Below are positions 19,260 through 33,387 of a stretch of 35,666 bases of DNA, piece by piece (within the stretch, counting starts at the first letter, position 1; every line of letters begins with the position of its first letter). The position numbers were made by a program, and so were the translations under genes. The notes below the pieces were generated by a model, which was not told where the DNA came from, ran no database searches, and worked only from the letters and a program-made list of their open reading frames with translations. Source of the DNA: Paracoccaceae bacterium (GTDB taxonomy: Bacteria; Pseudomonadota; Alphaproteobacteria; Rhodobacterales; Rhodobacteraceae). The stretch covers positions 1 through 35,666 of the forward strand of contig REDZ01000084.1 of assembly GCA_007695345.1 (NCBI GenBank), in the 5' to 3' direction.

Positions 19260-19335
19260 GGGCCGGTAGCTCAGTTGGTAGAGCGTTCCGTTTACACCGG
19301 AATTGTCGGGGGTTCGAGTCCCTCCCGGCCCACCA
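19260..19335 (+). tRNA. tRNA-Val(UAC)
   Basis: The 76-nt cloverleaf has acceptor stem GGGCCGG/CCGGCCC, discriminator A and an encoded CCA. The D-arm is AGCTCAGTTGGTAGAGC. The anticodon arm TTCCG-TTTACAC-CGGAA has anticodon TAC. The T-arm contains GGTTCGAGTCC. It reads GUA and other valine codons. Confidence 0.96.
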
Positions 19336-19678
19336 TCTTCTTCAGGAGCGATCTGTGCATCCGTGACGTCGGGCGCAACTGCCCTTTGAGTAGCGCACGA
19401 TGTCCAAACAAGTTGATCCCATAGGACGATGGACGGTTCGATATTTGTCACATTTCAAGGCATGAAAGTGGCGAAGCCGAGTGCCGTGGCGCTGAGCAGG
19501 AAATAAGCAAGCCCGAGACGTTGGCTTATTTCAGTGGCAGTTCAGACGATGCCTGCGGTTGAAACTGTCCGGTCAACCAGAAACATCTGCAACGAGTCTG
19601 CAATCGGGTGCAGGGTTTCCCTGTCTCCTGAACGCCAGACAGCACGGCATCGGCCTTGTGCGGAAAGATCCTGTATCG
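19336..19678. other. Gap without a supported gene between tRNA-Val and the LysR gene
   Basis: About 340 bp. The open frames here are translations across the tRNA or upstream extensions of the LysR gene and have no family likeness. No repeat of the tRNA 3' end and no integrase trace was seen. It may include the promoter of the LysR gene. Confidence 0.6.
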
Positions 19679-20617
19679 ATGATCCAGCGACAGCTTACCG
19701 CGCTGAACGAGATCGACATGCGGAACATGCGCATGTTTCGCAGGATTGTCGACGCAGGTGGGATTTCGCTTGCGGCGAATTCCTTCGGTGCCGAGAAATC
19801 CACGTTCAGTCGCGCGCTGAAGGCGCTTGAAGAACGGCTCAGCGCTGAATTATGCGTCCGCGGACCACGAGGTTTTGCGCTGACCGAATACGGGCGCGTC
19901 GTCTACGAAACCTCTGTTTTTCTGGATGAGTCCATCAGTGTGGCGCGCGCCAGGCTCAACGGCACACGGCACAGCATCGCCGGGAAGCTGACGCTCGGGA
20001 TCTCGGACAATCTGATCAGCAACATGGATGCGAAGCTGTCGGATTCACTGGAAGTGCTGTTCAGTGTCGCGCCGGACGTGCAGGTGACGGTGTCGATCCT
20101 GCCGCCTGACCAGCTTGCAGAGGAACTGGATGCCGGTGCCGTGGATATCGCGATCATAGCTGAGCAACACCTCGATTCCGGCTTTCACATGAGCCCGCTG
20201 TTCTATGAGCATTATCGCCTGTTCGGCGCTGTGCCCGATGGACATGCGACGCCTGTCCCCTATGAAAAGCTGACCAGTGAAAAGGTCGGCGTGATCCAGC
20301 GTACCTTTACACGCCCCGGTGTCAGCGCGGAATCGCTCAGGCTCGTTGGGGCATGGACAGTCAAGGCAAGTGGTCTGGAAGCTGTGGCAACGCTGATCAA
20401 TACAGGCCGTTGCGTCGGCTTTCTGCCGACACATTATATCCGGACTATCCCGATGCGACGGCCGATCAGGGAAGTGCCCGGCGCGGAAAACCTGCGTCAT
20501 GCGCTGCTGTCCGGTGCTGCCACCAAGCGTTCCGCGCCGCGCAGCCTGCAAGTGCAGATGCTGGTCGATATTCTGAAATCCAAGATGCCACCTGCTTTGT
20601 TGCAAGCTGCGGAATAA
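19679..20617 (+). CDS. LysR-family transcriptional regulator (module 1)
   Basis: The product is 312 aa from the ATG at 19679; an ATG at 19718 (MRNMRMF) fits family starts equally well. The N-terminal winged helix-turn-helix is FRRIVDAGGISLAANSFGAE followed by KSTFSRALKALEERLSAEL. The effector domain follows (GKLTLGISDNL, VTVSILPPDQLAEELDAGAV, DIAIIAEQHLD, ATLINTGRCVGFLPTHY). It is encoded just ahead of, and on the same strand as, the ureohydrolase/ABC transporter operon, from which it is separated by 225 bp (20618-20842). Local control of that operon is the likely role; the inducer is unknown. No clear palindromic operator could be picked out of the gap. Confidence 0.85.
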   Translation: MIQRQLTALNEIDMRNMRMFRRIVDAGGISLAANSFGAEKSTFSRALKALEERLSAELCVRGPRGFALTEYGRVVYETSVFLDESISVARARLNGTRHSIAGKLTLGISDNLISNMDAKLSDSLEVLFSVAPDVQVTVSILPPDQLAEELDAGAVDIAIIAEQHLDSGFHMSPLFYEHYRLFGAVPDGHATPVPYEKLTSEKVGVIQRTFTRPGVSAESLRLVGAWTVKASGLEAVATLINTGRCVGFLPTHYIRTIPMRRPIREVPGAENLRHALLSGAATKRSAPRSLQVQMLVDILKSKMPPALLQAAE

Positions 20618-20842: not shown

Positions 20843-21847
20843 ATGCCCGAGATCCCTCTGAACGAGATGCAGCGCCTGACAGTGCCTGCGCGCCAATCCG
20901 CCGGTAGTTTCCTGTTTTCCGAAGTTGTCACCGAAACGGATGATCTGCAGGCCGATATCGTATTTCTGGGTATTCCCCATGGCAGCGCCTACACACCCGA
21001 TGCCATTGCCAATGACCAGATTCACGCCCCCGACACGATCCGCCAGGTGACCACGCGTGTCAGCCGCTCGCTCGAGCGGCATGATTTTGATGTTGGCGGG
21101 CCAATCTATGATGGCCGCCCGATCCGCGCGGTGGATCTGGGCAATGTGCCTTATGATATCGCTGTTCCCGGCGGCGATCATTACCGCAAGGCAGAAGCGG
21201 TCTTGCGCCAGGTCTATGATGCAGGCGCCATGTCAATTGTTTTTGGCGGCGATCATGGTATCCCGATCCCCATTCTGCGCGCACTCGAGGTCGCGGCCAG
21301 CCCCGAGGACCCGATCGTGCTGATCCAGATAGACGCACATATCGACTGGCGCGACGATGTGAATGGCGTCTCCGACGGGTTGTCGAGTCCGATCCGCCGG
21401 GCGTCGGAGATGGCGCATATCGCCGAAATCTTCCAGATCGGAATTCGCGCGCAGGGCAGCGGACGCCCTGAGGAATACGCCGCTGCGATGGATTATGGTG
21501 CGCAGATCGTCCCTGCGTTCGAGGTGCATGATGGCGGGGTCGAGGCCGTTCTGGCCCGTATCCCCGACAATCGCCGCTACTACATCACGATCGATGCAGA
21601 CGGGATCGACCCGTCCGAAGCCCCGGCTGTCGAAGGGCCTGCGCCGGGTGGCCTGACCTTTCACCAGTGCCGCAAGCTGATCCACGGACTGGTGGGCAAG
21701 GGGCGGGTCCTGGGTATGGATATCGTCGAAATCACACCGTCGCGCGACGTCAATGACATCACCTCGATCCTGGCAGGCCGCCTGGCCGTCAATCTGATCG
21801 GGGCCGCTGTCCGTGCCGATTACTTCACCCCGAATGACGCGACATGA
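20843..21847 (+). CDS. Divergent ureohydrolase (arginase/agmatinase family) A
   Basis: The product is 334 aa. Members of this binuclear-metal superfamily hydrolyse guanidino or related C-N groups. All metal ligands are present: His138 (FGGDHG), Asp164/His166/Asp168 (DAHID) and Asp251/Asp253 (TIDADGID); the E296 of MDIVEITP also matches. Two family landmarks differ. The substrate-side S-H-G-(T)-P motif reads G-L-S-S-P-I-R-R (179-186), so the usual His is absent. The RPGAR-GP stretch is replaced by YTPDAIANDQIHAPDTIR (50-67). It may therefore act on an unusual substrate or need a partner subunit. The start at 20843 has GGAG five bases upstream. It heads the module 1 transport operon. Confidence 0.88.
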   Translation: MPEIPLNEMQRLTVPARQSAGSFLFSEVVTETDDLQADIVFLGIPHGSAYTPDAIANDQIHAPDTIRQVTTRVSRSLERHDFDVGGPIYDGRPIRAVDLGNVPYDIAVPGGDHYRKAEAVLRQVYDAGAMSIVFGGDHGIPIPILRALEVAASPEDPIVLIQIDAHIDWRDDVNGVSDGLSSPIRRASEMAHIAEIFQIGIRAQGSGRPEEYAAAMDYGAQIVPAFEVHDGGVEAVLARIPDNRRYYITIDADGIDPSEAPAVEGPAPGGLTFHQCRKLIHGLVGKGRVLGMDIVEITPSRDVNDITSILAGRLAVNLIGAAVRADYFTPNDAT

Positions 21848-21878
21848 GGCTCGCGTCTTCACCTGTACAGGAGCACTT

Positions 21879-22736
21879 ATGATGACTGATTCACTTCGCC
21901 AGACACGATCGCTGCCCGCGCTGGCCCTTGGCTTGGCCGCACTGGCCCTGCCTGCCACGGCAAGCACAACGCTGGAGCGTATTCTGGAATCCGGGGTCGC
22001 CACAATTGGCACCGAGGCCGCATTTCCGCCATTCGAATTCGTGGATGATGACGGCGAGATCGTTGGCTACGGCAAGGACATTCTGAATGTGGTGATCGAG
22101 GAAATGGGGGTAGAACTCAACCAGCTTGACCTTCCATGGCAAGGGATCCTGCCGGGTCTGCTGGCAGAGAATTTCGATTTCGTTGCCACCACCGTTGCGA
22201 TCAACGAGGAACGCGCCCGGCGCTATGCCTTCACCCTGCCGATTGCCAATGGCCAGCCGCATATCATGACGCGTGAGGGTGAGGCTGTGGACAGTGAGGA
22301 CGATCTGTCAGGCATGATCGTGGGCACACAGCTTGCGTCATCGACCGAGCCGATTGCACGCGCTCTGGATGAACGCCTGCAAGAGGATCTGGGCGAGGGG
22401 TTTGGGGAACTCAAGCTTTATACGGCCTTCACCGACACCTATGTGGCGCTTGCCAGTGGCGAGATCGATGCCGTGATCCAGTCGCTTCCGAACCTGGCTG
22501 TGCTGGTGCAGGAACGCCCCGGCCTGTTCGAGATCGCAGCCCCGGTCGAAACCTCTGTTGAATGGACATATATGGGATGGGTTACCCGACCCGAGGACAC
22601 GGATCTGCGCGACTTCATCTCGGACGTGATCCGCGACATGCGCGATGACGGGCGCCTGTATGAACTGCAGGAAAAGTGGTTCGGCTTTGTCATGGAAATC
22701 CCTGATGAGGGCTATCTGCCGGATGACGCTCATTAA
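21879..22736 (+). CDS. Polar amino-acid ABC transporter, periplasmic binding protein
   Basis: The product is 285 aa. A signal peptide (about 1-29, ending ALPATAS) precedes a family-3 solute-binding domain. Landmarks are IGTEAAFPPFEFVDDDGEIV, GYGKDILNVVIEEMG, WQGILPGLLAENFDFVATTV, the INEERARRYAFT substrate-clamp region and YVALASGEIDAVIQSLP. These proteins bind polar amino acids and similar cations, which fits a guanidino compound or basic amino acid, though the ligand cannot be read off. The ATG at 21879 follows AGGAG. It lies 31 bp after ureohydrolase A and is separated from its permeases by hairpins. Confidence 0.92.
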   Translation: MMTDSLRQTRSLPALALGLAALALPATASTTLERILESGVATIGTEAAFPPFEFVDDDGEIVGYGKDILNVVIEEMGVELNQLDLPWQGILPGLLAENFDFVATTVAINEERARRYAFTLPIANGQPHIMTREGEAVDSEDDLSGMIVGTQLASSTEPIARALDERLQEDLGEGFGELKLYTAFTDTYVALASGEIDAVIQSLPNLAVLVQERPGLFEIAAPVETSVEWTYMGWVTRPEDTDLRDFISDVIRDMRDDGRLYELQEKWFGFVMEIPDEGYLPDDAH

Positions 22737-22762
22737 GTCCTGAAACCAAAATCAGACAGTAT

Positions 22763-22818
22763 CGGGCACGGTCGCGTGCCCGTTCATCTGCAGCCAGACA
22801 AACACCCGTCTTGGCTGC
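22763..22818 (+). other. Two intercistronic hairpins between binding protein and permease
   Basis: CGGGCACG-GTCG-CGTGCCCG (22763-22782) is a perfect 8-bp stem, followed by GCAGCCA...TGGCTGC (22790-22818), a 7-bp stem with longer loop. No T-run follows. Such stems after a binding-protein gene commonly protect its mRNA and lower downstream permease expression. Confidence 0.6.
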
Positions 22819-22848
22819 ACCCAACTCAGACAAGGCAGGACAAGGTCG

Positions 22849-23508
22849 GTGGGTTTCGAGATTGATGCCGTCTGGGGCGCGATGCCCCGTCTGATGAACG
22901 CCGTCGGCGTGAATTTCAGGATCGCCATGATCTCGATCCTTCTGGCGCTTCTGGGCGGCACGCTGCTGACGATTCTGCGGTCATTCAAGATCCGGATCGT
23001 CAATGCAGTGATCGCCGTATTCATGAGCTTTGTCCGCGGCACCCCGCTGCTTATCCAGATATTCCTGGCCTATTACGGACTCCCGGCCCTGGGTCTGCGG
23101 TTAAGTCCGCAGGCTGCGGGGATCCTCGCACTCTCGCTCAATTCGGCATTCTTCGTGTCAGAGATCCTGCGCGGCAGCCTGCCCAGCATAGAGGATGGCC
23201 AGATAGAGGCCGCGACCGCCCTCGGCCTGCGCCCGCGACCGATCTGGAGCAAGGTCGTGCTTCCGCAACTCTTTCGAAAGACCCTGCCCATGCTGATAAA
23301 CGAGGCGACCGTTGTCCTGAAGGGAACTGCATTGCTCGCGGTGATCACGGTGGTCGAAACACTGCGGGTTGCCCAGCAGATCGGGTCATCGACCTTCCGC
23401 CCGTTTGAACCGATTGTCGGCGCCGCGATCCTGTTTCTGGCGATGAACCTTGTGCTGGTCACCATCGGCTGGGTGTTCGAGCGTCGTTTTGCAAAAGAGC
23501 GTCGGTGA
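22849..23508 (+). CDS. Polar amino-acid ABC transporter permease 1
   Basis: The product is 219 aa from a GTG start. It is a HisM/GlnP-type permease with about five helices. The domain starts at FRIAMISILLALLGGTLLTI, then VRGTPLLIQIFLAYYGLPAL, a hallmark of this subfamily. The EAA loop is EAATALGLRPRPIWSKVVLP, which docks on the ATPase. It has the expected length. The stop overlaps the start of the second permease. The second permease is homologous, so the channel is probably a heterodimer in the inner membrane. Confidence 0.92.
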   Translation: MGFEIDAVWGAMPRLMNAVGVNFRIAMISILLALLGGTLLTILRSFKIRIVNAVIAVFMSFVRGTPLLIQIFLAYYGLPALGLRLSPQAAGILALSLNSAFFVSEILRGSLPSIEDGQIEAATALGLRPRPIWSKVVLPQLFRKTLPMLINEATVVLKGTALLAVITVVETLRVAQQIGSSTFRPFEPIVGAAILFLAMNLVLVTIGWVFERRFAKERR

Positions 23509-24236
23509 TTGCCATGACCCTCGATCCGACCGTTATAACCGATTACTGGCCGCTTTTCGTCCAAGGGGCTTTCCTGACGCTGCGGCTGGCCGCCATCGCT
23601 TTCGTGGGCGGCATGCTGATCGGTGCAGTCTGCGCAGCGCTCAGCCTGCTGAATATCGGGCCCGTGCGCGCGGTCATCACTGTGTATCTGGCGCTGATGC
23701 GTGGCATTCCCTTTATCGTCATCGTGTTTCTGGTGCATTTCGGACTGCCCGCGTTCGGCATGCGCACTCCGGCCATCGTAACGGGCACCGTCGCGCTTAC
23801 CCTTTTTGCGGGTGCGTATTATGTCGAGATCATTCGTGGCGCGGTCGAAGCCCTGCCAAAGGGCCAATGGGAATCTGCGCGCGCCATCGGCATGTCGCCT
23901 GTCGCTGCCGCGCGCCATGTGATCGTGCCGCAGATCATTTCGCCCAGCATTCCACCAATCGTGAATTGCACCATGACCATGATCAAGGAAAGCTCGGTGC
24001 TGTCGGCCATCACGGTATCGGAACTGACCTATCAGGGCCTGATCGTTCAGGGCAACACCTTTGCCCCGTTCGAGGTGTTCATCACGGTCGCGCTGATCTA
24101 TTGGGCCATCACCATGCTGTTTCACATGCTGGCGCAGGCCTATGATCGGCGCTTCGGGGCATCGACTGGGCGTTCCAGCCGCATGAGCCCGATTGCAGCG
24201 CGTTATCTCAGCATTGACGGAAAGTCGGGGACATGA
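23505..24236 (+). CDS. Polar amino-acid ABC transporter permease 2
   Basis: The product is 243 aa from the GTG at 23505, which overlaps the previous stop (GTGA). An ATG at 23514 is an alternative preceded by GGTGA. The permease pattern is FVQGAFLTLRLAAIAFVGGM, LALMRGIPFIVIVFLVHFGL and the EAA-loop WESARAIGMSPVAAARHVIV. ITVSELTYQGLIVQG follows, matching the 'vsELt..g' end of the family. It has a hydrophilic C-terminal tail of about 30 residues that is longer than usual. It pairs with permease 1. Confidence 0.92.
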   Translation: MIAMTLDPTVITDYWPLFVQGAFLTLRLAAIAFVGGMLIGAVCAALSLLNIGPVRAVITVYLALMRGIPFIVIVFLVHFGLPAFGMRTPAIVTGTVALTLFAGAYYVEIIRGAVEALPKGQWESARAIGMSPVAAARHVIVPQIISPSIPPIVNCTMTMIKESSVLSAITVSELTYQGLIVQGNTFAPFEVFITVALIYWAITMLFHMLAQAYDRRFGASTGRSSRMSPIAARYLSIDGKSGT

Positions 24237-25051
24237 CGGGGTTTGCCCTGCGCACAACCGGGCTTGTCCGGCGGTTCGGTGACCTGAGGGCGCTGGATGA
24301 GGTCTATCTCGACATTCCTTATGGCCAGGTGGTCAGCCTGGTCGGCCCCTCGGGCTGCGGGAAATCCACGCTTTTGCGCTGCCTGACCTATCTGGATCCG
24401 CCCGATGACGGGTTCATCGAGGTGGGCGGCGACTGGCTGGGGCGCGAGCGCCTGTCAAACGGCACCATACGCCGTCGGTCGCGCCGCGATATTGACAGGG
24501 TGCGCCGCAAGATCGGCATGGTGTTTCAGGCACTGAACCTGTGGCCGCACATGAGTGTGCTGGACAATCTGAGTGTTGCCCAGCGCGTTGCCCTCGGGCG
24601 GTCTGAGGCCGAAGCCGAGAGCCGCGCGCGGGCCTTGCTTGACAGGCTCCGCATATCCGAGATTGCAGATGCCTTTCCGGGCCAGATTTCGGGTGGTCAG
24701 CAACAGCGCGTGGCCATTGCGCGCGCCATGGCCATGGACCCGGAGATTCTGCTTTTTGACGAACCGACCTCGGCACTGGACCCCGAACTGGTGGGTGAAG
24801 TGCTGCGCCTGCTCAAGGAATTTGCGCAATCGGGCATGACCATGCTGGTCGTCACGCATGAACTCGCCTTTGCCCGCGATGTTGCCGACCGGTTACTGTT
24901 CATGGACAGGGGGCGCATTCTGGCAGACGGGCCGCCGCAACAGGTCATCACCCAGACCCGAGACCGCCGTGTGCGCGATTTTTTTGACAAGGTCACGGCG
25001 TTCCACCCGAAATTCATGCAAGCTGCGGCAGAAACGGAGGATGAGAGTTGA
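24233..25051 (+). CDS. Polar amino-acid ABC transporter ATP-binding protein
   Basis: The product is 272 aa of the GlnQ/HisP type. The Walker A is VGPSGCGKSTLLRC (37-50), the Q-loop GMVFQALNLWPHMSVLDNL, the signature ISGGQQQRVAIARAM, the Walker B ILLFDEPTSALDPE and the switch His in VTHEL. An insertion between Walker A and Q-loop (LSNGTIRRRSRRDIDRVRRK) is basic and a little longer than usual. Start and stop overlap both neighbours (ATGA and TTGA), giving tight coupling from permease to ureohydrolase B. Confidence 0.94.
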   Translation: MTGFALRTTGLVRRFGDLRALDEVYLDIPYGQVVSLVGPSGCGKSTLLRCLTYLDPPDDGFIEVGGDWLGRERLSNGTIRRRSRRDIDRVRRKIGMVFQALNLWPHMSVLDNLSVAQRVALGRSEAEAESRARALLDRLRISEIADAFPGQISGGQQQRVAIARAMAMDPEILLFDEPTSALDPELVGEVLRLLKEFAQSGMTMLVVTHELAFARDVADRLLFMDRGRILADGPPQQVITQTRDRRVRDFFDKVTAFHPKFMQAAAETEDES

Positions 25052-26016
25052 AAAGGATCAACAGAGGATATGTCGGGATACCCAGTTTTCTGCGTGCCCG
25101 TATCGCACCCGACCCGGACGACTACGGCGCAGCCCGGATCGGCGTGCTGGGAATACCGTTTGACGAAGGGTCGCCCTTTCTGCCTGGCAGCCGATTCGGC
25201 CCGCGCGGCATTCGCGAGCATTCGCTGCGTATTCCGGCGGATGAACCGCTATACGACCCCGATACAGGCGAAAGCTTTCTGGGGCGCGAACTGGCCGAGG
25301 GGCTGATCATCGATGTCGGCGATGTCGATGTGCGCCCCGCCAAGCCCGAACGCACATTCGAGATCATCACCGCCCGTGTGCGTGAGATGCTGGATGGAGG
25401 GTTGTTTCCGGTCATCCTGGGGGGCGATCACGCGATCACCTATCCGGTTTTTCAGGCGTTCGACACACCGATGCATGTGATCCAGTTCGATGCCCATCAG
25501 GATTATGCCGAAATCGATGCCGATCTGGACCGCACCAACAGTCATGCCTTCCGACATATCGGCGCCATGCCCACCTGTCTGTCCATGACCCAGATCGGTA
25601 TTCGTGGGCTGCGCACAACCCGCCGCCATGTCGAGGAAATGCGCGCGGCGGGCCATCGCGTTATCGGAATGACTGAAACCCGCAGGCTGGGTCCACGCGG
25701 CATCGCGGATTTGCTGCCCGAAGGGTCTGATGTCTATGTCACGATAGATGTGGATGCCCTGGATCTGTCCATCGTGCCCGGATGTGTGTCGGGTGAGCCG
25801 GACGGGATGGGCTTTCGCGACCTGATGGAAAGCCTGCGCGAAATTGCAAAGCGCCACCGCATTCGCGGGTTCGACTTTGTCGAAGTAAACCCCCCGCTGG
25901 ATATCGGCACTGGTGCCACATCCTATCTGGGGGCGCTGATCGTGACCGAATTTCTTGGCCATATCTGCAACCAGCCCTGGTGGTCCGAAACCCTGCAACA
26001 CGGAAAACAGACATGA
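25048..26016 (+). CDS. Agmatinase-like ureohydrolase B
   Basis: The product is 322 aa from a TTG start at 25048 overlapping the ATPase stop; GGAGG lies 8 bp upstream. The agmatinase pattern is clear: GIPFDEGSPFLPGSRFGPRG (35-54), His128 (LGGDHAIT), Asp148/His150/Asp152 (FDAHQDY), His166 in TNSHAFRHI, Asp234/Asp236 (TIDVDALD) and Glu279 (FVEVNPP). All metal ligands and the substrate-side His are in place, so it is expected to be active. It is clearly different from ureohydrolase A, sharing only the superfamily motifs. The name agmatinase should not be taken literally, since relatives act on guanidinobutyrate, guanidinopropionate and other guanidino compounds. Confidence 0.9.
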   Translation: MKRINRGYVGIPSFLRARIAPDPDDYGAARIGVLGIPFDEGSPFLPGSRFGPRGIREHSLRIPADEPLYDPDTGESFLGRELAEGLIIDVGDVDVRPAKPERTFEIITARVREMLDGGLFPVILGGDHAITYPVFQAFDTPMHVIQFDAHQDYAEIDADLDRTNSHAFRHIGAMPTCLSMTQIGIRGLRTTRRHVEEMRAAGHRVIGMTETRRLGPRGIADLLPEGSDVYVTIDVDALDLSIVPGCVSGEPDGMGFRDLMESLREIAKRHRIRGFDFVEVNPPLDIGTGATSYLGALIVTEFLGHICNQPWWSETLQHGKQT

Positions 26017-26609
26017 CACAGACCGAGCGCATTGAAATTCCCGCAGCCCATGGCCAGGCCATCCACCTACAGGCCGATGCCTGCATAACGATCTACAACA
26101 CATCCGGCACACAGGTTGTGGATACCTGGGCGCTCAGCGCTGACGATCCCGCGCATGCCATGTCCATGTCACATACCCGCGTCGAGACCGGGCGCATCAG
26201 TCCCGTGCCCGGCGATGTGCTGGTCACCAACCGGCGCGAACCGATCCTGCGACTTGAAGAGGACAGTTCCAGCGGGGTTCATGATACGTTGATGGCCGCC
26301 TGTGATGCGCAGCGCTATGCCAATCTGGGCGCACAGGGGTATCATCGAAGCTGCGCCGACAATTTCCATGAAGCGCTTGGGCGCCTGGGCCTCTCTGCAT
26401 CAGAGGTGCCGCAGCCGCTCAATCTGTTCATGAATATCCCGATCAATCCTGATGGAACTCTGACTCAGGGCGATCCTCCGGCGCAGCCCGGTGATCATGT
26501 CAAGTTGCGCGCCCTGCGCGACTGCGTGATTGTGCTGTCCGCCTGTCCTCAGGACATGACGCCCATCAACGGCGCAGGATGCACTGCAGTTCACTATGCG
26601 CTGTCATGA
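26013..26609 (+). CDS. DUF1989 (urea-carboxylase-associated) family protein
   Basis: The product is 198 aa. The fold markers are QVVDTWALSADDPAHAMSMS (34-53), PGDVLVTNRREPIL, EDSSSGVHDTLMAACDAQRY (His90, Cys97), YHRSCADNFHEAL (Cys114) and the C-terminal LSACPQDMTPINGAGCTAVH (Cys178, Cys190). Family relatives include the two carboxyguanidine deiminase subunits CgdA/CgdB of guanidine breakdown and urea-carboxylase-associated proteins, which act on guanidine-derived nitrogen. Here only one such gene is present, without urea carboxylase. The ATG overlaps the stop of ureohydrolase B, tying it to guanidino metabolism. It is the last gene of module 1 and converges on the RraA-like gene 87 bp away. 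Confidence 0.85.
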   Translation: MTQTERIEIPAAHGQAIHLQADACITIYNTSGTQVVDTWALSADDPAHAMSMSHTRVETGRISPVPGDVLVTNRREPILRLEEDSSSGVHDTLMAACDAQRYANLGAQGYHRSCADNFHEALGRLGLSASEVPQPLNLFMNIPINPDGTLTQGDPPAQPGDHVKLRALRDCVIVLSACPQDMTPINGAGCTAVHYALS

Positions 26610-26696: not shown

Positions 26697-27368
26697 TCAG
26701 CTGTCGGTCATCGCGGCGCGGATGCGCGCCGAGGCGCCGGACAGATCGCCGATGCGCACATCTCCCGCGCGGATCTGGCGTTGCCGACCAGCACCCCGCT
26801 CCTGGCGTCCGATGGCCTCCGACGCGGTTGACGCGACCTCTTCGGGGCGCAGCACGACGATGCCGCTTTCATCCGCAAGGATCGCATCGCCCGGCAGGAC
26901 AACCGCGCCGCCACAGGATATCGGGATGTTCAGCGCGCCGCCGATCTGGGTCATACGGGTCGTGATGGGTGAGACACCCCGCGCCCAGACAGGCAGGCCG
27001 GCCTCGAGGATCTCGGATACATCCGTGCAGGGACCATCGATGATCACCCCGGCCACACCCGCCGCCACTGCTGCCAGTGCGACCCCGCCGCCCAGACAGG
27101 CGAAGCGGCGGTCCTGCAATCTGTCGATCACCAGAATGTCCCCGCGCCGGGTTTCCGACAGGGCGTGATGCAACATCGAACTGTCGATCGAGGGCAGCGC
27201 CAGCGTCACCGCCGTGCCGACCACTTTCTGATCGGGGCGCAACGGGCGCAACGCGATATCCATGAACCCGATCTGACGGAAATGACCGATGGTCGCCGTT
27301 TCGGCCTGCGCCAAAAGTTCCAGATCGTCTGACGCGATCTGCGCAGGCATGGGCTTGGCGGTATACAT
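26697..27368 (-). CDS. RraA-like protein (HMG/CHA aldolase superfamily)
   Basis: The product is 223 aa from an ATG at 27368 preceded by a strong GGAAGGAGG. The fold is visible in RRGDILVIDRLQDRRFACLG, AGVAGVIIDGPCTDVSEILE, GLPVWARGVSP, NIPISCGGAVVLPGDAILAD and SGIVVLRPEE. Relatives are class II pyruvate aldolases (4-hydroxy-4-methyl-2-oxoglutarate or carboxyhydroxyoxoadipate aldolase), oxaloacetate decarboxylases and the RNase E regulator RraA. In those, D-G-x-x-R-D binds substrate and Mg; here it reads D-G-P-C-T-D (111-116), so the substrate-binding Arg is Thr115. The metal Asp116 is retained. Aldolase activity is therefore uncertain. It follows dppC by 56 bp and probably belongs to the module 2 operon. 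Confidence 0.82.
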   Translation of the reverse strand: MYTAKPMPAQIASDDLELLAQAETATIGHFRQIGFMDIALRPLRPDQKVVGTAVTLALPSIDSSMLHHALSETRRGDILVIDRLQDRRFACLGGGVALAAVAAGVAGVIIDGPCTDVSEILEAGLPVWARGVSPITTRMTQIGGALNIPISCGGAVVLPGDAILADESGIVVLRPEEVASTASEAIGRQERGAGRQRQIRAGDVRIGDLSGASARIRAAMTDS

Positions 27369-27403
27369 GGCTCCTCCTTCCACGATAAATGATACTGTCA
27401 CAC

Positions 27404-27429
27404 CCTGAGCAGGGTATCCTGCCCTCAGG
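27404..27429 (-). other. Intercistronic hairpin between dppC-like and RraA-like genes
   Basis: CCTGAGCAGG-GTAT-CCTGCCCTCAGG can pair over 10 bp with a 2-nt bulge; it includes the stop of the upstream permease gene. There is no T-run. It could limit or process the transcript before the RraA-like gene. Confidence 0.5.
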
Positions 27430-28288
27430 TCATCCGGCGGCCGCGCAAGGTGGGGTCCAGCCGGTCGCGCAGCCAGTCCCCGACCAGCGAGATCGACAAG
27501 GCCAGCAGAAAGATCAGCATCCCGGGGAACAGGGTCAGCCACCAGGCATTCAGAAGCCTGTCACGCCCCTCGCTCATGATCTGACCCAGACTGGTCATCG
27601 GCGGCTGCACACCCAGCCCCAGAAAGCTCAAGGCGGTTTCCAGCAGGATGGTCAGCGGCATGTTCACGGTGAACTGCACAAGGATGACATTGAACACATT
27701 CGGCAGGATATGCCGCAGGTATATTCTCAGCGCCGATGCCCCCAGCACCCGCTGCGCCGTGACGTAGCCCTGATTACGCGCCGAAAGCGTGGCGGCGCGC
27801 ACCAGCCGCGCATAGGCTTCCCAACCGGTCAGGCCGATCAGGAACAACAAGAGCATGAAGGAGCTGTCAAACATTGCCAGCACGAACAGCGCCACGATAA
27901 TGATGGGCAGCGAAAGCTGCACATCGACGCCGGTCATGATCGCGGCTTCGGTGTAGCCGCGCCGCGCGGCCGCGATCAGCCCCAGAGCAGACCCGATTAC
28001 CGCCCCGATCAATGTGCCCGCGACGGCAACCAGCAGCGTGACCTGCGCCCCGACCGCCAGCCGGGCGACCAGATCGCGACCGCGCGCATCCGTGCCCAGC
28101 GGATATTCCGAGCCGCTGCCGAACAGGCCAGGCGCTTCAAGCCGGTGCATCAGCGCCGTCTGGCGGTAGCCATAGGGTGTCAGATACGTGCCGAACAGGG
28201 CGAACAGCACGAACAGGACCAGAAAAATGAGCGAGAGTTTCACGACCAGCGGCATGGCGCCGTGGTCCAGTCGACCGGTATCAGCCAT
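27425..28288 (-). CDS. Peptide/nickel-type ABC transporter permease, DppC family
   Basis: The product is 287 aa from the ATG at 28288, which follows GGGGGG. The N-terminal helix LSLIFLVLFVLFALFGTYL is followed by SEYPLGTDARGRDLVARLAV, the classic DppC/OppC 'G.D..GRD...R...G' motif. The permease core (TLIGAVIGSALGLIAAARRG) and the EAA loop GASALRIYLRHILPNVFNVI follow, then LSFLGLGVQPP. Length and topology (about six helices) are normal. The start overlaps the end of the DppB gene. It partners DppB in the module 2 importer. Confidence 0.93.
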   Translation of the reverse strand: MADTGRLDHGAMPLVVKLSLIFLVLFVLFALFGTYLTPYGYRQTALMHRLEAPGLFGSGSEYPLGTDARGRDLVARLAVGAQVTLLVAVAGTLIGAVIGSALGLIAAARRGYTEAAIMTGVDVQLSLPIIIVALFVLAMFDSSFMLLLFLIGLTGWEAYARLVRAATLSARNQGYVTAQRVLGASALRIYLRHILPNVFNVILVQFTVNMPLTILLETALSFLGLGVQPPMTSLGQIMSEGRDRLLNAWWLTLFPGMLIFLLALSISLVGDWLRDRLDPTLRGRRMT

Positions 28289-29213
28289 TCTGCCCCCCAC
28301 GCATTCTGGGGTCGAGGATCACATAGACCAGATCGACCAGCAGGTTGGTCACGGTCATGGTCAGGGCCACCATCAGCACGATGAATTGCAGCACGGCGAT
28401 GTCGCGGGTCTCGACCGAACGGATCAACAGCCGCCCTATGCCCGGCCAGCTGAAGACCTGCTCGGTCACCACGGCGCCCGCGACAATTCCGCCAAGGCTG
28501 AGGCCGAGCATCGTCACGACCGGGATGGCCGCGTTCGGTATGGCATGGCGCAAGAGCCTGCGCCGTGGTGGCACTCCGCGCACGGCGAGTGCAGTCATGA
28601 ACGGCTTGTTCAGGGTTTCCAGCAGCGATGAGCGGGTGAACCGCGCGAAAGACCCCATCGCAGCCAACCCCAGCGTGGCCGCCGGTGCCAGCAATTGCCC
28701 GAAGCTCCGTGTCGCCCCCGACCCGCCGAAAAAGACCCCGAAGAACAGCGCCCCGCTCAGCACCACCAGCAGGCCGAAAAAGAAATTGGGCATAGCGAAC
28801 GCGAAGACCGAAAAGCCCATCACGAAGCGATCAATGATCGAATTGTGCCGCAGCGCCGCAATCAGCCCCAGCGTCACCCCTAGCCCCAGCGCGATGGCAA
28901 GTGCTGTCAGGCCCAGCAGCAATGTCGCGGGCAGCCGTTCGAAAAACAGTGATTGTGCGCTGCGCCCAGTATGGATCGAGTAGCCGAAATCGCCCTGAAA
29001 CATGCCACCGATGTATCGCAGATACTGCGTCAGTAGTGGCTGATCGAGCCCCAGTCGCGTGCGATACTCCTCGACAACGGCAGGCGGGGCGTCTGGCGGG
29101 GCCAGTGCCAGTGCCGGATCGCCCGACAGACGTATGAAGAAAAAGACCAGCGAGACAGCAATCAGCAATGTGATCACCGCGCGCAGGATCTTCAACGTGA
29201 CGATGCGTGCCAT
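28281..29213 (-). CDS. Peptide/nickel-type ABC transporter permease, DppB family
   Basis: The product is 310 aa. The N-terminal helix LRAVITLLIAVSLVFFFIRL is followed by SGDPALALAP and YIGGMFQGDFGYSIHTGR, both typical of DppB. The EAA-type loop is VRGVPPRRRLLRHAIPNAAI, followed by the VEQVFSWPGIGRLL-like stretch (here TEQVFSWPGIGRLLIRSVET). VNLVVDLVY is represented by TNLLVDLVYVILDPRMR at the end. Six helices can be counted. The start overlaps the fused ATPase stop by one base (TGATG). Confidence 0.93.
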   Translation of the reverse strand: MARIVTLKILRAVITLLIAVSLVFFFIRLSGDPALALAPPDAPPAVVEEYRTRLGLDQPLLTQYLRYIGGMFQGDFGYSIHTGRSAQSLFFERLPATLLLGLTALAIALGLGVTLGLIAALRHNSIIDRFVMGFSVFAFAMPNFFFGLLVVLSGALFFGVFFGGSGATRSFGQLLAPAATLGLAAMGSFARFTRSSLLETLNKPFMTALAVRGVPPRRRLLRHAIPNAAIPVVTMLGLSLGGIVAGAVVTEQVFSWPGIGRLLIRSVETRDIAVLQFIVLMVALTMTVTNLLVDLVYVILDPRMRGGQNG

Positions 29214-30829
29214 CAGCCCTCTCCCGATGCAGCAGGGAAATTGCCGGCACGCCCTGCCTTGTCCGGGACCGCGTCCAGCAAGGCGCGTGTATAGGGGTCG
29301 CGCGGCGCATCGAATATCTGGTCCATGGGGCCTTGTTCGACCACCTGGCCCGCGCGCAAGACTGTGATGTCATCACAGATCGCACTGGCGACGCGCAGAT
29401 CATGGGTGACGAACAGCATTGCGAAGCCAAGCCGCTCCTGCAATTCGCGGAACAAGGCGAGGATCTGCGCCTGGATCGAGACATCCAGCGCCGACACCGC
29501 CTCATCGGCGATCAGGATTTCCGGCTCTGTCGCCAGAGCGCGGGCGATACAGATGCGCTGACGTTGCCCGCCAGAGAATTCATGCGGGAAGCGCGTGTAG
29601 GACTGTGCGCTCAGCCCCACGCGTTCCAGAAGGGTCCGTGCACGGTCGCGGGCCTGATCTGCGCTGGCGCCATGAATGCGCGCTGCTTCGGCCACGGCAT
29701 CGCCGATGCGCTGGCGCGGGTTGAGCGCGGTGTAGGGGTCTTGCAGAACGATCTGCAGGCGCTGGCGAATCGAACGCGGCAGGCCGGTGCCCCAGTCTGT
29801 GGTGTCCTGGCCCATGATGCGGATCCGTCCGGACTTGCGTTGCTCAAGATGCAGCAGGCAGCGCACAAGCGAGGATTTGCCCGACCCGCTTTCCCCGACA
29901 ATGCCATGCGTCTCGCCCCGCCGGAGGGTCAGCGAGACATCCTGCACGGCCGCGATCTCGGTCCGGCGAAACAGCCCTGTCGTTCCACGATAGGTCAGAC
30001 TGACGCCCTCGGCTTCCAGCACCGGATCAGGGCGCAGGCTCGGGGGCGGTTGGGCAGCCCGCCTACGCGGAAGAGCCGCCACAAGTTTGCGTGTATAGGG
30101 ATGCGCGGGCGCGGACAGGACCCTCTCGACCGGCCCCTCTTCGACCGCGTTGCCGTGCTGCATCACGACCACGTGGTCGGCGATATCCGCGACCACACCC
30201 AGATCATGCGTAATGAACAACAACCCCGATCCGCGCGCGGTCTGCAACTCGCGCAGCAAGCGCAGGATTTCGGCCTGCGTGGTCACGTCCAGTGCCGTGG
30301 TTGGTTCGTCCGCAATCAGCAGCATCGGATCGAAGGCCAACGCCATCGCGATCACCACGCGTTGTGCCTGCCCGCCCGATACCTCATGCGGATAGGCACG
30401 ATGGATGCGTTCGGGTTCGGGCAGTTTCACGGCGTCGAGCAATTCCAGCGCCCGCGCCCGCCGGGCGCGACGGCCACGCACCCCGTGCACCATCAGCACT
30501 TCTTCAAGCTGGTCGCCGATGCGCATGATGGGGTCGAGGCTGGCGGTCGGCTCCTGAAAGATGGTGCCGATCTCGCGACCGCGCTGCCGTGTATCAAGGG
30601 GCGCACCGCGAAAGGCAATGCTGCCCGAGGTCTGACGCAATGCTGGTGGCAGCACCCCCAGCACCGCTTGTCCTGTCACCGACTTTCCCGATCCGCTTTC
30701 GCCCACCAGGCACAGACATTGGCCTGGTGCGATGCGCAATGAAAGATTGCGCACCGCATGGGTCCGGTCGCTCCCGGTGGGCAGGCTGATCGACACATCG
30801 CTCAGCCGCAGGATCGGGGTATCGGACAT
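29213..30829 (-). CDS. Fused peptide-type ABC ATPase (DppD-DppF in one chain)
   Basis: The product is 538 aa with two complete nucleotide-binding domains. NBD1 has VGESGSGKSVTGQAVLG, VSGGQAQRVVIAMALAFDP and LLIADEPTTALDVT. NBD2 has VGESGSGKSSLVRCLLHLE, FSGGQRQRICIARALATEP and LIADEAVSALDVSI (Ala in place of Pro after DE). The linker around residue 255-280 is Arg/Pro-rich (ALPRRRAAQPPPSLRP). Such fused forms are common for peptide, glutathione and opine importers in alphaproteobacteria. It supplies both ATPase sites for the DppB/DppC channel. It follows the binding-protein gene after 7 bp. Confidence 0.93.
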   Translation of the reverse strand: MSDTPILRLSDVSISLPTGSDRTHAVRNLSLRIAPGQCLCLVGESGSGKSVTGQAVLGVLPPALRQTSGSIAFRGAPLDTRQRGREIGTIFQEPTASLDPIMRIGDQLEEVLMVHGVRGRRARRARALELLDAVKLPEPERIHRAYPHEVSGGQAQRVVIAMALAFDPMLLIADEPTTALDVTTQAEILRLLRELQTARGSGLLFITHDLGVVADIADHVVVMQHGNAVEEGPVERVLSAPAHPYTRKLVAALPRRRAAQPPPSLRPDPVLEAEGVSLTYRGTTGLFRRTEIAAVQDVSLTLRRGETHGIVGESGSGKSSLVRCLLHLEQRKSGRIRIMGQDTTDWGTGLPRSIRQRLQIVLQDPYTALNPRQRIGDAVAEAARIHGASADQARDRARTLLERVGLSAQSYTRFPHEFSGGQRQRICIARALATEPEILIADEAVSALDVSIQAQILALFRELQERLGFAMLFVTHDLRVASAICDDITVLRAGQVVEQGPMDQIFDAPRDPYTRALLDAVPDKAGRAGNFPAASGEG

Positions 30830-30836
30830 GGACCGA

Positions 30837-32414
30837 TCAGTCGTGCAGGGTCACGTAGCGGTCGTCAAAGACAGTGACCTGCGTGCTGCCCGGATCGAAG
30901 CTGATCCCGTCGCGCATGGCGAAGCTCTGGACGTTGCGCCACAGATAAAGCGCGGGCGTCACATCTTCCCAGGCGGCCAGCAACTCGCGATAGGCGGCGT
31001 AGCGGTCCTCGAACTCCTGCGCGCGGGCAAAGCGCTGCCCGGCCTCAAGGAAATCTTCTGTCGGCACCCAGGTGCGGTGACTTGCCTCGACCCGGTTCGA
31101 GCCCGGCCCCCAGTCCAGCCACAGCGGGCGATACGGGTCGCCCGTGAATTCCGATGACATCGACATGTTCAGCAGGTGGAAGGGACGCTCATAGGCGAGT
31201 GCGAAATTGTCCATGATGCGGATCTCGACATCGATGCCCATCTCGGCCCATTCCTCGACCATGAACTCCGCCGCGGTTTCATAATTCGGAAAGAAGCCGC
31301 GCACGACGTGCCAGCGCAATGTTTCGCCATCATAGCCGGATTGTTCCAGATATTCGGCAGCGCGCTCTGGGTCGTAGCCATAGGTCGCTTCGCGGTCCGG
31401 GTCGTGGTAATCCCCGTATTCAGGGAAGTTGAAGGGGGTTGGCGTGTAGGTCAGATCATCCCACAACGCGCGCGCGATCCCGTCCATGTCGATGGCCATG
31501 ACCATCGCCTTGCGCAGATCGGCATCCATGATCGGGTTGTCGTCCATCCCGTCGATGTCCAGCGTGTTGAAGGCAAACATCGGATAATTGCCGACCTGCC
31601 CGACCAGCAGATCGATATCGTCGGTCTGCTCGACCACATCGAACTGGTCAACGGGGATGCTGACGATCATGTCGAACTCGCCCGAAACCAGCCCCGCGTA
31701 GCGCGTCGAGTATTCGCTTACCACGCTCCATGTGATGCTGTCGAACAAGGGGTCGCTGCCCCAGTAATTGTCGTAGGCCTCTGCGACCAGCCGGGTTGAG
31801 GGGTCGAATTCCACAACCTGATACTGGCCTGTGCCAATAGGGTTTTGGCCGAATTCTTCGGTGCCGACCTCTTCATAGTAATCGCGTGGCAGGACAAACC
31901 CGATGGGTGTGGTCAGGCGCGCAATGAAACTCGCGTCGGGGAATTCGGTCTCAAGCTCGACTGTGTAGTCATCGATTGCCTCGACACGGACCAGACCGGC
32001 GGCGAAACTGGCACCGCGCGGCGCGATCGGATCTTCGCCCCAAAGCCGCTCGGCCGAGAGCGAGAACGCCACGTCATGCGCGGTCATCGGATCGCCATTG
32101 TGAAACTCGACACCCTCGCGGATGGTCAATGTCCAGACCGTCTCAGAGGTCCGCTCCCAGTCAGTCGCAAGACCGGGGATCAGGGTGTTGCCATCCGGGT
32201 CCTCGAAATAGTTGCGCTGGATCAGCGTCTCGAACACGTTGGAATGCACCCGCCCGCCAGTGGTCGAAATGCCGATAACCGGGTCCATGTTCGGCCAGAG
32301 GTTATCCACGGCGAAATTGAAGTCGGATCGCTCTTGCGCCGCTACCATGGAGGGCAGGCTCACGCCGAGGGCGAGAGCGATGGCCACGCCTGATCGGGTC
32401 GGTGTCATTGTCAT
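30837..32414 (-). CDS. Peptide-type (family 5) ABC transporter substrate-binding protein
   Basis: The product is 525 aa. A signal peptide (about 1-27, ending SMVAAQ) precedes a family-5 solute-binding domain: NVFETLIQRNYFEDPDGNTL, PGLATDWERTSETVWTLTIR, REGVEFHNGDPMTAHDVAFS, and NPIGTGQYQVVEFDPSTRLV. All are DppA/OppA landmarks. The mature protein is strongly acidic. Ligands of this family range from peptides to opines, glutathione, nickel and sugars, so the ligand is open. The ATG overlaps the amidase stop (ATGA), and AAGAAGGAG lies upstream. That coupling suggests amidase and importer serve the same substrate. Confidence 0.92.
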   Translation of the reverse strand: MTMTPTRSGVAIALALGVSLPSMVAAQERSDFNFAVDNLWPNMDPVIGISTTGGRVHSNVFETLIQRNYFEDPDGNTLIPGLATDWERTSETVWTLTIREGVEFHNGDPMTAHDVAFSLSAERLWGEDPIAPRGASFAAGLVRVEAIDDYTVELETEFPDASFIARLTTPIGFVLPRDYYEEVGTEEFGQNPIGTGQYQVVEFDPSTRLVAEAYDNYWGSDPLFDSITWSVVSEYSTRYAGLVSGEFDMIVSIPVDQFDVVEQTDDIDLLVGQVGNYPMFAFNTLDIDGMDDNPIMDADLRKAMVMAIDMDGIARALWDDLTYTPTPFNFPEYGDYHDPDREATYGYDPERAAEYLEQSGYDGETLRWHVVRGFFPNYETAAEFMVEEWAEMGIDVEIRIMDNFALAYERPFHLLNMSMSSEFTGDPYRPLWLDWGPGSNRVEASHRTWVPTEDFLEAGQRFARAQEFEDRYAAYRELLAAWEDVTPALYLWRNVQSFAMRDGISFDPGSTQVTVFDDRYVTLHD

Positions 32415-33319
32415 GCTCCTTCTTTCAGGGATCTCTGGGGGTTGATCGAATGCGCTGGCAGTCTGGCCGGCATGTAGTCACGTTCATTGCGCAGGGACGG
32501 GACGGCGTTGCGCGCTTTGCTCACGGACGCCATGTCGAGGTCCAGAACCGCAAGGCCGGTGCGCTGTTCCATATCGCACAGCACCTTGCCCCAGGGATCG
32601 ATGATCAGCGAATGCCCCCAAGTCTTGCGTCCGTCATCATGCTGGCCTGTCTGGGCCGCAGCAATCACGAAGCAGCCATTCTCGATTGCGCGACTGCGCA
32701 GCAACACTTCCCAATGCGCCGCGCCGGTCGCCAGTGCGAACGCTGATGGCACGAACAGCATCGTGGCCCCAAGCTTCGCATAGTCGCGATAGAGATGCGG
32801 AAACCGCAGGTCGTAGCAGATCGACAGCCCGACTGGTCCCCAGGGTGTATCCGCGACCTCTGCGCGTTCACCCGGCACATACCGGTCGGATTCGCGCCGC
32901 GGTGTCTCGCCGGGCAAGTCCACGTCGAACAGATGAATCTTGTCATACCGCGCAACAATCTTGCCCGACGGATCAATCAGATGCCCGCGATTGCGAAACC
33001 GGCCATCGGTTTCTTCGAGCACCGGGGTCGACCCTGTCTGCACCCACATCCTGTGCCCGCTTGCCACGTTGCGGCAGGCTGCGATGAATGGGTCCGCGTC
33101 TTCGGGCAGGACGGCCCGGCGTGCGCTCTCCAGATCGCGGTTCATCAGGCCTGCGGCCTCTGGCAATGCCAGCATCTGCGCACCCTTGTCCGCAGCCTCG
33201 TGCGCGATCTGCTGCAATGCGGCAATATTCGTGTCATGGCGATTGCTGGACGTCATCTGCGCCATGGCGAGGCGCAAGACCGTCTGCGCCGGATGTGTCG
33301 CGGATTCGGGGGCAGTCAT
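32411..33319 (-). CDS. Nitrilase-superfamily amidase, Nit1/Nit2-like
   Basis: The product is 302 aa. The C-N hydrolase triad is present: Glu54 (ALPEAAGLM), Lys127 (YDKIHLFDVDLP) and Cys168 (LSICYDLRFPHLYRDYAKLG). The KIHLFDVDLPGETPRRESDR context and the FALATGAAHWEVLLRSRAIE stretch are typical of the Nit branch, which includes deaminated-glutathione amidase, omega-amidase and related carboxamide hydrolases. No signal peptide, so it is cytoplasmic. The start at 33319 has CAGGAGG eight bases upstream; the longer frame to 33379 would enter the divergent promoter. As the first gene of the module 2 operon it probably releases ammonia from an imported amide. The substrate is unknown. Confidence 0.88.
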   Translation of the reverse strand: MTAPESATHPAQTVLRLAMAQMTSSNRHDTNIAALQQIAHEAADKGAQMLALPEAAGLMNRDLESARRAVLPEDADPFIAACRNVASGHRMWVQTGSTPVLEETDGRFRNRGHLIDPSGKIVARYDKIHLFDVDLPGETPRRESDRYVPGERAEVADTPWGPVGLSICYDLRFPHLYRDYAKLGATMLFVPSAFALATGAAHWEVLLRSRAIENGCFVIAAAQTGQHDDGRKTWGHSLIIDPWGKVLCDMEQRTGLAVLDLDMASVSKARNAVPSLRNERDYMPARLPAHSINPQRSLKEGA

Positions 33320-33387
33320 GGCAGTCCTCCTGTAACGCAAATTCATAGTGGCGTGCCTTGGATTGAAAAAAAAGTTCATTATCTGCC

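Follow-up and report, generated by a model that had tools for sequence, protein, structure and literature searches.

A conserved operon with two unlike ureohydrolases, an amino acid importer and a DUF1989 protein, and its possible role in nitrogen scavenging

We analyzed a stretch of 35,666 nucleotides from a Paracoccaceae bacterium (contig REDZ01000084.1 of assembly GCA_007695345.1; referred to below as 'the window'), focusing on an operon at positions 20843-26609 of the + strand that encodes a ureohydrolase (A), an ATP-binding cassette (ABC) importer, a second and unlike ureohydrolase (B) and a DUF1989 protein. The order of the A, importer and B genes recurs in many other bacteria, and the unit seems to be real and to represent an undescribed pathway. 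The reading that we prefer, to which we give a probability of roughly one half, is that of a LysR-controlled nitrogen-scavenging pathway in which an amidine-type carboxylate would be imported and then hydrolyzed by A and B, with urea passing to urease and the DUF1989 protein carrying out a deamination.

Gene order and conservation

The operon begins with ureohydrolase A (20843-21847; PF00491, 181 bits, but below the NCBIfam cut-offs listed), followed by a periplasmic binding protein of the SBP_bac_3 family (21879-22736; PF00497), two permeases (P1, 22849-23508, and P2, 23505-24236; both PF00528), an ATPase (24233-25051; PF00005), ureohydrolase B (25048-26016; PF00491, 203 bits) and the DUF1989 protein (26013-26609; PF09347, 163 bits against a cut-off of 27). 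This is the one-strand gene set described in the original prediction, which had been made from the DNA letters and their reading frames, and every member of it was found. Its description of the stop and start codons as mostly overlapping also holds, neighboring genes sharing 4 bases at four of the six junctions (P1/P2, P2/ATPase, ATPase/B and B/DUF1989); gaps of 31 and 112 bases separate A from the binding protein gene and the latter from P1.

A LysR-family regulator gene (19676-20617, + strand; PF03466 and PF00126; start codon uncertain) lies upstream of A and is co-directed with it. It is a member of the operon unit, because a LysR gene whose product is 34-49% identical adjoins A in 26 B-bearing loci. 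The regulator is divergent from A in 26 of 27 B-bearing relatives, so that the gene in the window appears as if inverted.

Relatives of A were collected by a profile scan, using an alignment of 14 A proteins (profile A1), of a database holding one genome per species (genome_contigs; 84,980 species). The scan gave at least 433 confirmed relatives, the best 80 of which (56-80% identity) were examined. Partner genes at these 80 loci were called by tblastn, with B defined as a match of at least 44% identity within 8 kb. B was found at 27 loci, together with DUF1989 at 18 and without it at 9; DUF1989 without B was found at two, and neither gene at the remaining 51. The B counts are lower bounds, because some loci (such as L130, which ends before the position of B) are too short to reach it; loci shorter than 16.5 kb make up 13 of the 53 B-less ones and one of the 27 B-bearing ones. 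All but one (L139) of the 27 B-bearing loci have the same order of genes, namely LysR (divergent), A, binding protein, P1, P2, ATPase and B. The arrangement is more than chance and is not a local accident, and a conserved, dedicated unit for uptake and hydrolysis, as originally proposed, is seen at 26 of the 80 best A loci. The neighborhood survey that had been suggested for A, B and DUF1989 thus finds the first two together at 27 of 80 loci and the third near B at 18 of those 27. A lack of co-conservation, together with the finding that both are known single-substrate enzymes such as plain agmatinases, had been named in advance among the grounds for abandoning the proposal; co-conservation is observed, and as far as sequence tells neither A nor B is a plain agmatinase.

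The carriers are many soil, plant-associated and marine bacteria; record titles of the B-bearing genomes name Actibacterium, Aureimonas, Methylobacterium, Jiella, Microvirga, Ancylobacter, Aurantimonas, Antarcticirhabdus, Bradyrhizobium, Bosea, Chelatococcus and a metagenome-assembled genome of Azospirillaceae. Copies that include DUF1989 are present on plasmids of Salipiger sp. CCB-MM3 (A and B each 80% identical to those of the window, DUF1989 57%) and Chelatococcus (pCO-6; A 68%, B 64%, DUF1989 64%), and Neorhizobium NCHU2750 has two plasmid copies of the operon with no DUF1989 annotated. Within the window's own family, a survey of 198 genomes found A at 50% identity or more in three other genomes and B at 46% at best, and in the stretches read the two were never part of a single unit.

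A tree of 85 A proteins (83 of them different) places the operon-type sequences in one clade (support 99/95) of 33 rows, of which 21 have B and DUF1989, eight have B only and four have neither (one of these being the cut locus L130). Several rows of the tree are near-identical, and since they are near-copies the rows do not represent independent events. The A relative of Ancylobacter rudongensis (L197 238-1191) has a stop inside the matched range.

Ureohydrolases, importer and DUF1989 protein

All six metal ligands are intact in both ureohydrolases (H138, D164, H166, D168, D251 and D253 in A; H128, D148, H150, D152, D234 and D236 in B). They are invariant across 42 aligned A and 28 aligned B sequences, as are W169, R170, S181 and S182 of A, which contribute to D-W-R and S-S motifs. 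The column of the non-ligand catalytic histidine is occupied in A by Leu (Leu or Tyr when several alignments are taken together) and in B by Asn (N164). The same column holds His in GbuA, GpuA, SpeB and GdmH, Asn in a Deinococcus radiodurans protein considered below and Ser (judged by eye) in canonical HutG. The D-W-R motif of A falls at the position of the HutG D-x-R, a feature that a T. volcanium agmatine-ureohydrolase chain also displays, yet with its histidine kept. Of these two features, the D-x-R and the loss of the histidine, A has both and B only the latter, an ambiguous indication as regards the HutG type.

Curated models do not assign either protein to a class. Both are below the cut-offs for agmatinase (TIGR01230: A 131 and B 134 against 174 bits; NF002564: A 134 and B 132 against 302 bits), for HutG (TIGR01227: A 85 and B 111 against 229 bits) and for arginase. 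In a tree of 36 ureohydrolases, in which long-branch attraction is a concern for HutG and arginase, A and B form separate, non-sister clades that lie outside both arginase and the clade of SpeB, GbuA, GpuA and GdmH (98/95). B groups with the D. radiodurans protein (94/90), and A with genes from the window's own family that are agmatinase-like (99/94). The latter relatives of A (36-44% identity) were considered as a source of hints to its substrate and gave none, their neighbors in several loci being the housekeeping genes fabF and fabD (by eye). AlphaFold2 models of A and B (predicted local distance difference test scores 88.8 and 77.4) match ureohydrolases, with the structure 1WOG first for both, and the structure matches single out no substrate class. 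The window genome has three further arginase-family genes; one enzyme encoded apart from the operon falls with SpeB in the tree (100/99), and another is arginase-like. The operon is also a warning that names such as speB or agmatinase, given to relatives of A and B in public plasmid records, may be wrong.

The D. radiodurans protein (L109 4977-5891) matches 1WOG, the best solved relative of A (111 bits) and of B (175 bits; 36-38% identity), and like them is without the catalytic histidine. The match of B to 1WOG is taken from a single search; a profile search with A3 is circular for 1WOG, since that profile contains this protein. The D. radiodurans protein, whose matching structure is labeled 'agmatinase', is encoded inside a hut operon and is probably a formimidoylglutamase. 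Unlike the operon in the window, that locus has no importer or DUF1989 gene in the stretch shown.

The importer genes comprise a complete polar amino acid ABC set (SBP_bac_3 binding protein, two permeases and ATPase). The binding protein keeps a conserved arginine (R112) and has Ser where five displayed PDB relatives have Asp, a thin sample in that four of them seem to be variants of a single protein. We take this Asp and Arg to be the residues that bind the alpha-ammonium and carboxylate groups, respectively, in ArgT-type proteins. Across the 26 B-bearing loci other than L139 the residue in the Asp column is S, P or N; L121 gave no reading. Because the arginine is kept and the alpha-amino Asp is replaced, the ligand would be a carboxylate that lacks a free alpha-ammonium group.

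The DUF1989 protein has a complete predicted zinc site: C97, C114, C178, H111 and D181 are invariant in 19 aligned operon copies and correspond, by alignment and spacing, to the three zinc cysteines plus H276 and D346 described for Tdm in PMC12560246. It resembles the solved proteins 3ORU and 3SIY (190 bits to 3ORU, over nearly its whole length, with the zinc cysteines conserved), which are listed only as DUF1989 family proteins with no function named. The family also includes CgdAB (UAAP1/UAAP2), a carboxyguanidine deiminase made of an active and an inactive member (PMC11271267). The operon in the window differs from that system in two ways: it has a single DUF1989 gene, whose product scores well under both cut-offs (106 against 285 bits for UAAP2, and 59 against 206), and a search of its genome found no urea carboxylase.

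More than one DUF1989 gene is present at seven loci. In three of these seven, L125 (14064-16579), L128 (14056-16592) and L129 (14068-16574), four such genes stand in a row behind B, the third of which has lost all three zinc cysteines while the other three keep all five residues. This intact/degenerate pair resembles the active/inactive pair of CgdAB; none of the three genomes gave a match to urea carboxylase, and the L125 copies, the pair included, are below both UAAP1/UAAP2 cut-offs. A Palleronia plasmid (L107 4550-8663) also has an intact/degenerate pair, among three DUF1989 genes around one amino acid ABC importer; one of the three is without two zinc cysteines, and no ureohydrolase is annotated in that stretch.

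Outside the operon, DUF1989 genes keep varied company. The window genome has one further, divergent copy. The same DUF1989 type adjoins a ureohydrolase gene in Mesorhizobium ciceri and lies two genes from one in Caballeronia, and two other genomes have DUF1989 with ABC genes and a ureohydrolase (G051) or near an arginase-like gene (G077). On plasmids of Klebsiella, Pantoea and Caballeronia the gene follows the same kind of importer together with an M20 protein, which in Klebsiella belongs to the hydantoinase/carbamoylase family (369 bits, cut-off 204). That neighbor would fit a putative role for DUF1989 in converting an amidino to a ureido group.

For the fate of the nitrogen, gene content was examined in 49 genomes, chosen non-randomly: 24 of the 27 B-bearing genomes plus the window genome, and 24 of the 53 without B. 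Urease is encoded in 25 of 25 B-operon genomes and 18 of 24 with A alone, against a baseline of 53 among 190 genomes of the class; for urea carboxylase the counts are one of 25 and 10 of 24. The urea carboxylase model TIGR02712 was not found in the window genome (91% complete), and a search of the window and 14 related loci gave no guanidine riboswitch at the gathering score. Gene content therefore supports the earlier suggestion that the DUF1989 step proceeds without urea carboxylase, none having been found in 24 of 25 carrier genomes.

Possible substrates and rival explanations

Under the nitrogen-scavenging reading, the cargo of the importer would be a small carboxylic acid that bears a cationic group of the amidine type but lacks a free alpha-ammonium; an N-amidino (guanidino) amino acid is the likeliest candidate and a formimidoyl acid the alternative. 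A and B would each use a two-metal site of its own to hydrolyze C-N bonds of this compound or of its first product, yielding an amino acid or amine plus urea, and the urea would go to a urease encoded elsewhere in the genome. The DUF1989 zinc protein, from the carboxyguanidine-deiminase family, would release further nitrogen as ammonia with no carboxylase involved. The ligand class, the order of steps, the products and the joint action of three enzymes in one pathway are all putative. Ureohydrolases for guanidino compounds with a carboxylate or sulfonate group, as proposed here, have precedents in human GDAH/AGMAT and P. aeruginosa GbuA/GpuA; GbuA and GpuA differ from A and B in keeping the histidine and in belonging to another clade. 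Of the original prediction of uptake and breakdown of a guanidino compound, the conserved uptake-hydrolysis unit stands; the guanidino substrate is plausible, agreeing with urease in 25 of 25 carriers and sitting less easily with the missing catalytic histidine.

The neighbors of A at the 53 loci without B offer a different view of its chemistry. RidA was found at 26 of them, MmgE/PrpD at 17, an ArgE-like protein at 10, asparaginase at nine and aspartase at six; at the 27 B-bearing loci the only such partner is ArgE-like, at one locus. Aminobacter and Paracoccus have importer genes, A, a further ATPase and asparaginase, joined by aspartase in Aminobacter. In A. ramasamyi the order is RidA, A, HutF (formimidoylglutamate deiminase; 650 bits, cut-off 525) and ArgE, and in Pseudorhodobacter importer genes, A and aspartase adjoin an apparent hut operon, in which HutF was assigned by match and HutI-, N-formylglutamate-amidohydrolase- and HutU-like genes by eye. 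Among these neighbors the NCBIfam models for HutF, ArgE and aspartase gave scores over a cut-off; within the limit applied, none named the RidA and MmgE/PrpD copies of A. ramasamyi. At L101, L040 and L165, B-less relatives of A again have MmgE/PrpD (by annotation or match) and RidA genes as neighbors. Because of the aspartase and asparaginase neighbors, the product of A in some B-less loci is plausibly a compound of the aspartate family.

A formimidoyl substrate is also open, because A and B are without the catalytic histidine and some of these B-less relatives lie beside histidine-degradation genes. In such a scheme the substrate would be an N-formimidoyl amino acid from histidine or imidazole degradation, A and B would be HutG-like enzymes that release formamide, and the DUF1989 protein would be a formimidoyl deiminase or would act on formamide. 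Canonical HutG shares with A both the absent histidine and the D-x-R; the nearest solved relative of B matches the D. radiodurans enzyme whose gene lies between hutU and hutI-hutH; and A lies between RidA and HutF in A. ramasamyi and, with ABC genes and aspartase, beside the hut operon of Pseudorhodobacter. A and B nevertheless score far under the HutG cut-off, a search of the 27 B-bearing loci for HutF, the only hut gene looked for there, gave no match close to A, and the urease found in every carrier examined would be needless for formamide. We consider this explanation rather unlikely.

Several observations weigh against the nitrogen-scavenging reading itself. That B-less relatives of A adjoin formimidoylglutamate deiminase and a hut operon points to formimidoyl rather than amidino chemistry, and no enzyme of exactly the A or B kind has a known substrate. 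The argument on the ligand is built from an alignment to few solved relatives and from general knowledge of the binding site, and not from a structure. DUF1989 was not found near B in nine of the 27 loci, and is for that reason not essential to the core of the unit; when 18 DUF1989 loci from the window's family were read, 16 had no ureohydrolase near. Two A-bearing genomes (L192 and L196) showed neither urease nor urea carboxylase, and the contrast in these enzymes between genomes with and without B is confounded by kinship and genome size.

The original prediction had further suggested that A and B might form a single hetero-oligomeric enzyme. Metformin and dimethylguanidine hydrolases (MetCaCb, MefH, DmgH) are likewise encoded by two unlike ureohydrolase genes in one operon, B accompanies A in 29 of the 33 rows of the operon clade, MetCa has an Asn (N199) at the catalytic-histidine place just as B does, and the role of arginase pairs in which neither metal site is degenerate is left open (both in PMC11271267). 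One subunit of metformin hydrolase, however, has lost its metal ligands, and genes for nickel chaperones are its close neighbors (PMC11399263). A and B, in contrast, both have intact ligands, fall in non-sister clades and are separated by four genes; B was not found beside A at 53 of 80 loci (13 of them shorter than 16.5 kb), and no nickel chaperone appears among the annotated features of the Salipiger, Chelatococcus and Neorhizobium relatives, the window not having been searched for those families. The suggestion is unsupported, and we regard such a joint enzyme as quite unlikely. Ordinary catabolism of agmatine, 4-guanidinobutyrate or 3-guanidinopropionate by two redundant ureohydrolases would account for the fold, the complete importer and the urease in the genome. 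This has a slim chance in our judgment, given that A and B lie outside the SpeB/GbuA/GpuA/GdmH clade, lack its histidine and are below the agmatinase cut-offs, and that the window genome already has its SpeB-grouping and arginase-like enzymes. Assimilation of free guanidine, with DUF1989 as a carboxyguanidine deiminase, is suggested by the family membership of CgdAB and by the three relatives in which intact DUF1989 copies are followed by one without zinc cysteines. The lack of a riboswitch at gathering score in the loci searched, the scarcity of urea carboxylase (24 of 25 carriers gave no match, L125, L128 and L129 among them) and an importer that looks built for a carboxylate make it very improbable.

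A more specific version of the nitrogen-scavenging reading, which we put forward tentatively and think unlikely to hold in full, is that A would be the first ureohydrolase to act on amino acids with an alpha-N-amidino group, such as guanidinosuccinate or guanidinoacetate, in a pathway with B and a carboxylase-free DUF1989 deiminase. This pathway would be widespread and horizontally moving and would recover all of the nitrogen, with some relatives using an active/inactive DUF1989 pair; elsewhere, A would feed aspartase plus asparaginase, RidA plus MmgE/PrpD, or ArgE-type modules. The human guanidino acid hydrolase does not hydrolyze guanidinosuccinate, guanidinoacetate or creatine (PMC9772407), so that an alpha-guanidino acid would, as far as is known, be a new substrate class for ureohydrolases. 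A literature search for formiminoaspartate or guanidinosuccinate hydrolases returned, among the titles and abstracts available, metabolomics work only.

Genomic surroundings and wider meaning

Ahead of the operon lies a tRNA-Val(tac) gene (19260-19335). In the two informative contigs of the same genus (L204 and L205) similarity to the window ends at base 19335, the end of the tRNA; L203, L206 and L208 themselves end at or before that point, and L207, L209 and L210 lose similarity earlier. GC content drops from about 65% to 57-61% just past the tRNA. The operon may therefore mark the start of a variable region next to the tRNA. An exact repeat of the tRNA-Val 3' end (16-30 bases) was not found in the window, and the right edge of such a region lies beyond it. 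Downstream, on the - strand (26697-33379), is a second unit that encodes an RraA-like protein and, as judged by eye from the reading frames, a nitrilase-like hydrolase and an ABC importer of the Dpp type whose double ATPase is fused. Dpp-type genes flank the operon in several Bradyrhizobium loci as well.

The operon is a new combination of known kinds of enzyme and importer and not a new category. No description of the gene set A-importer-B-DUF1989 was found in a literature search that covered few subscription papers. What arginase-family pairs do when both members have an intact metal site is stated to be an open question in PMC11271267. As a compact and widely conserved system, the operon joins that question to the one posed by DUF1989 proteins, and its dedicated binding protein provides a handle on the ligand.

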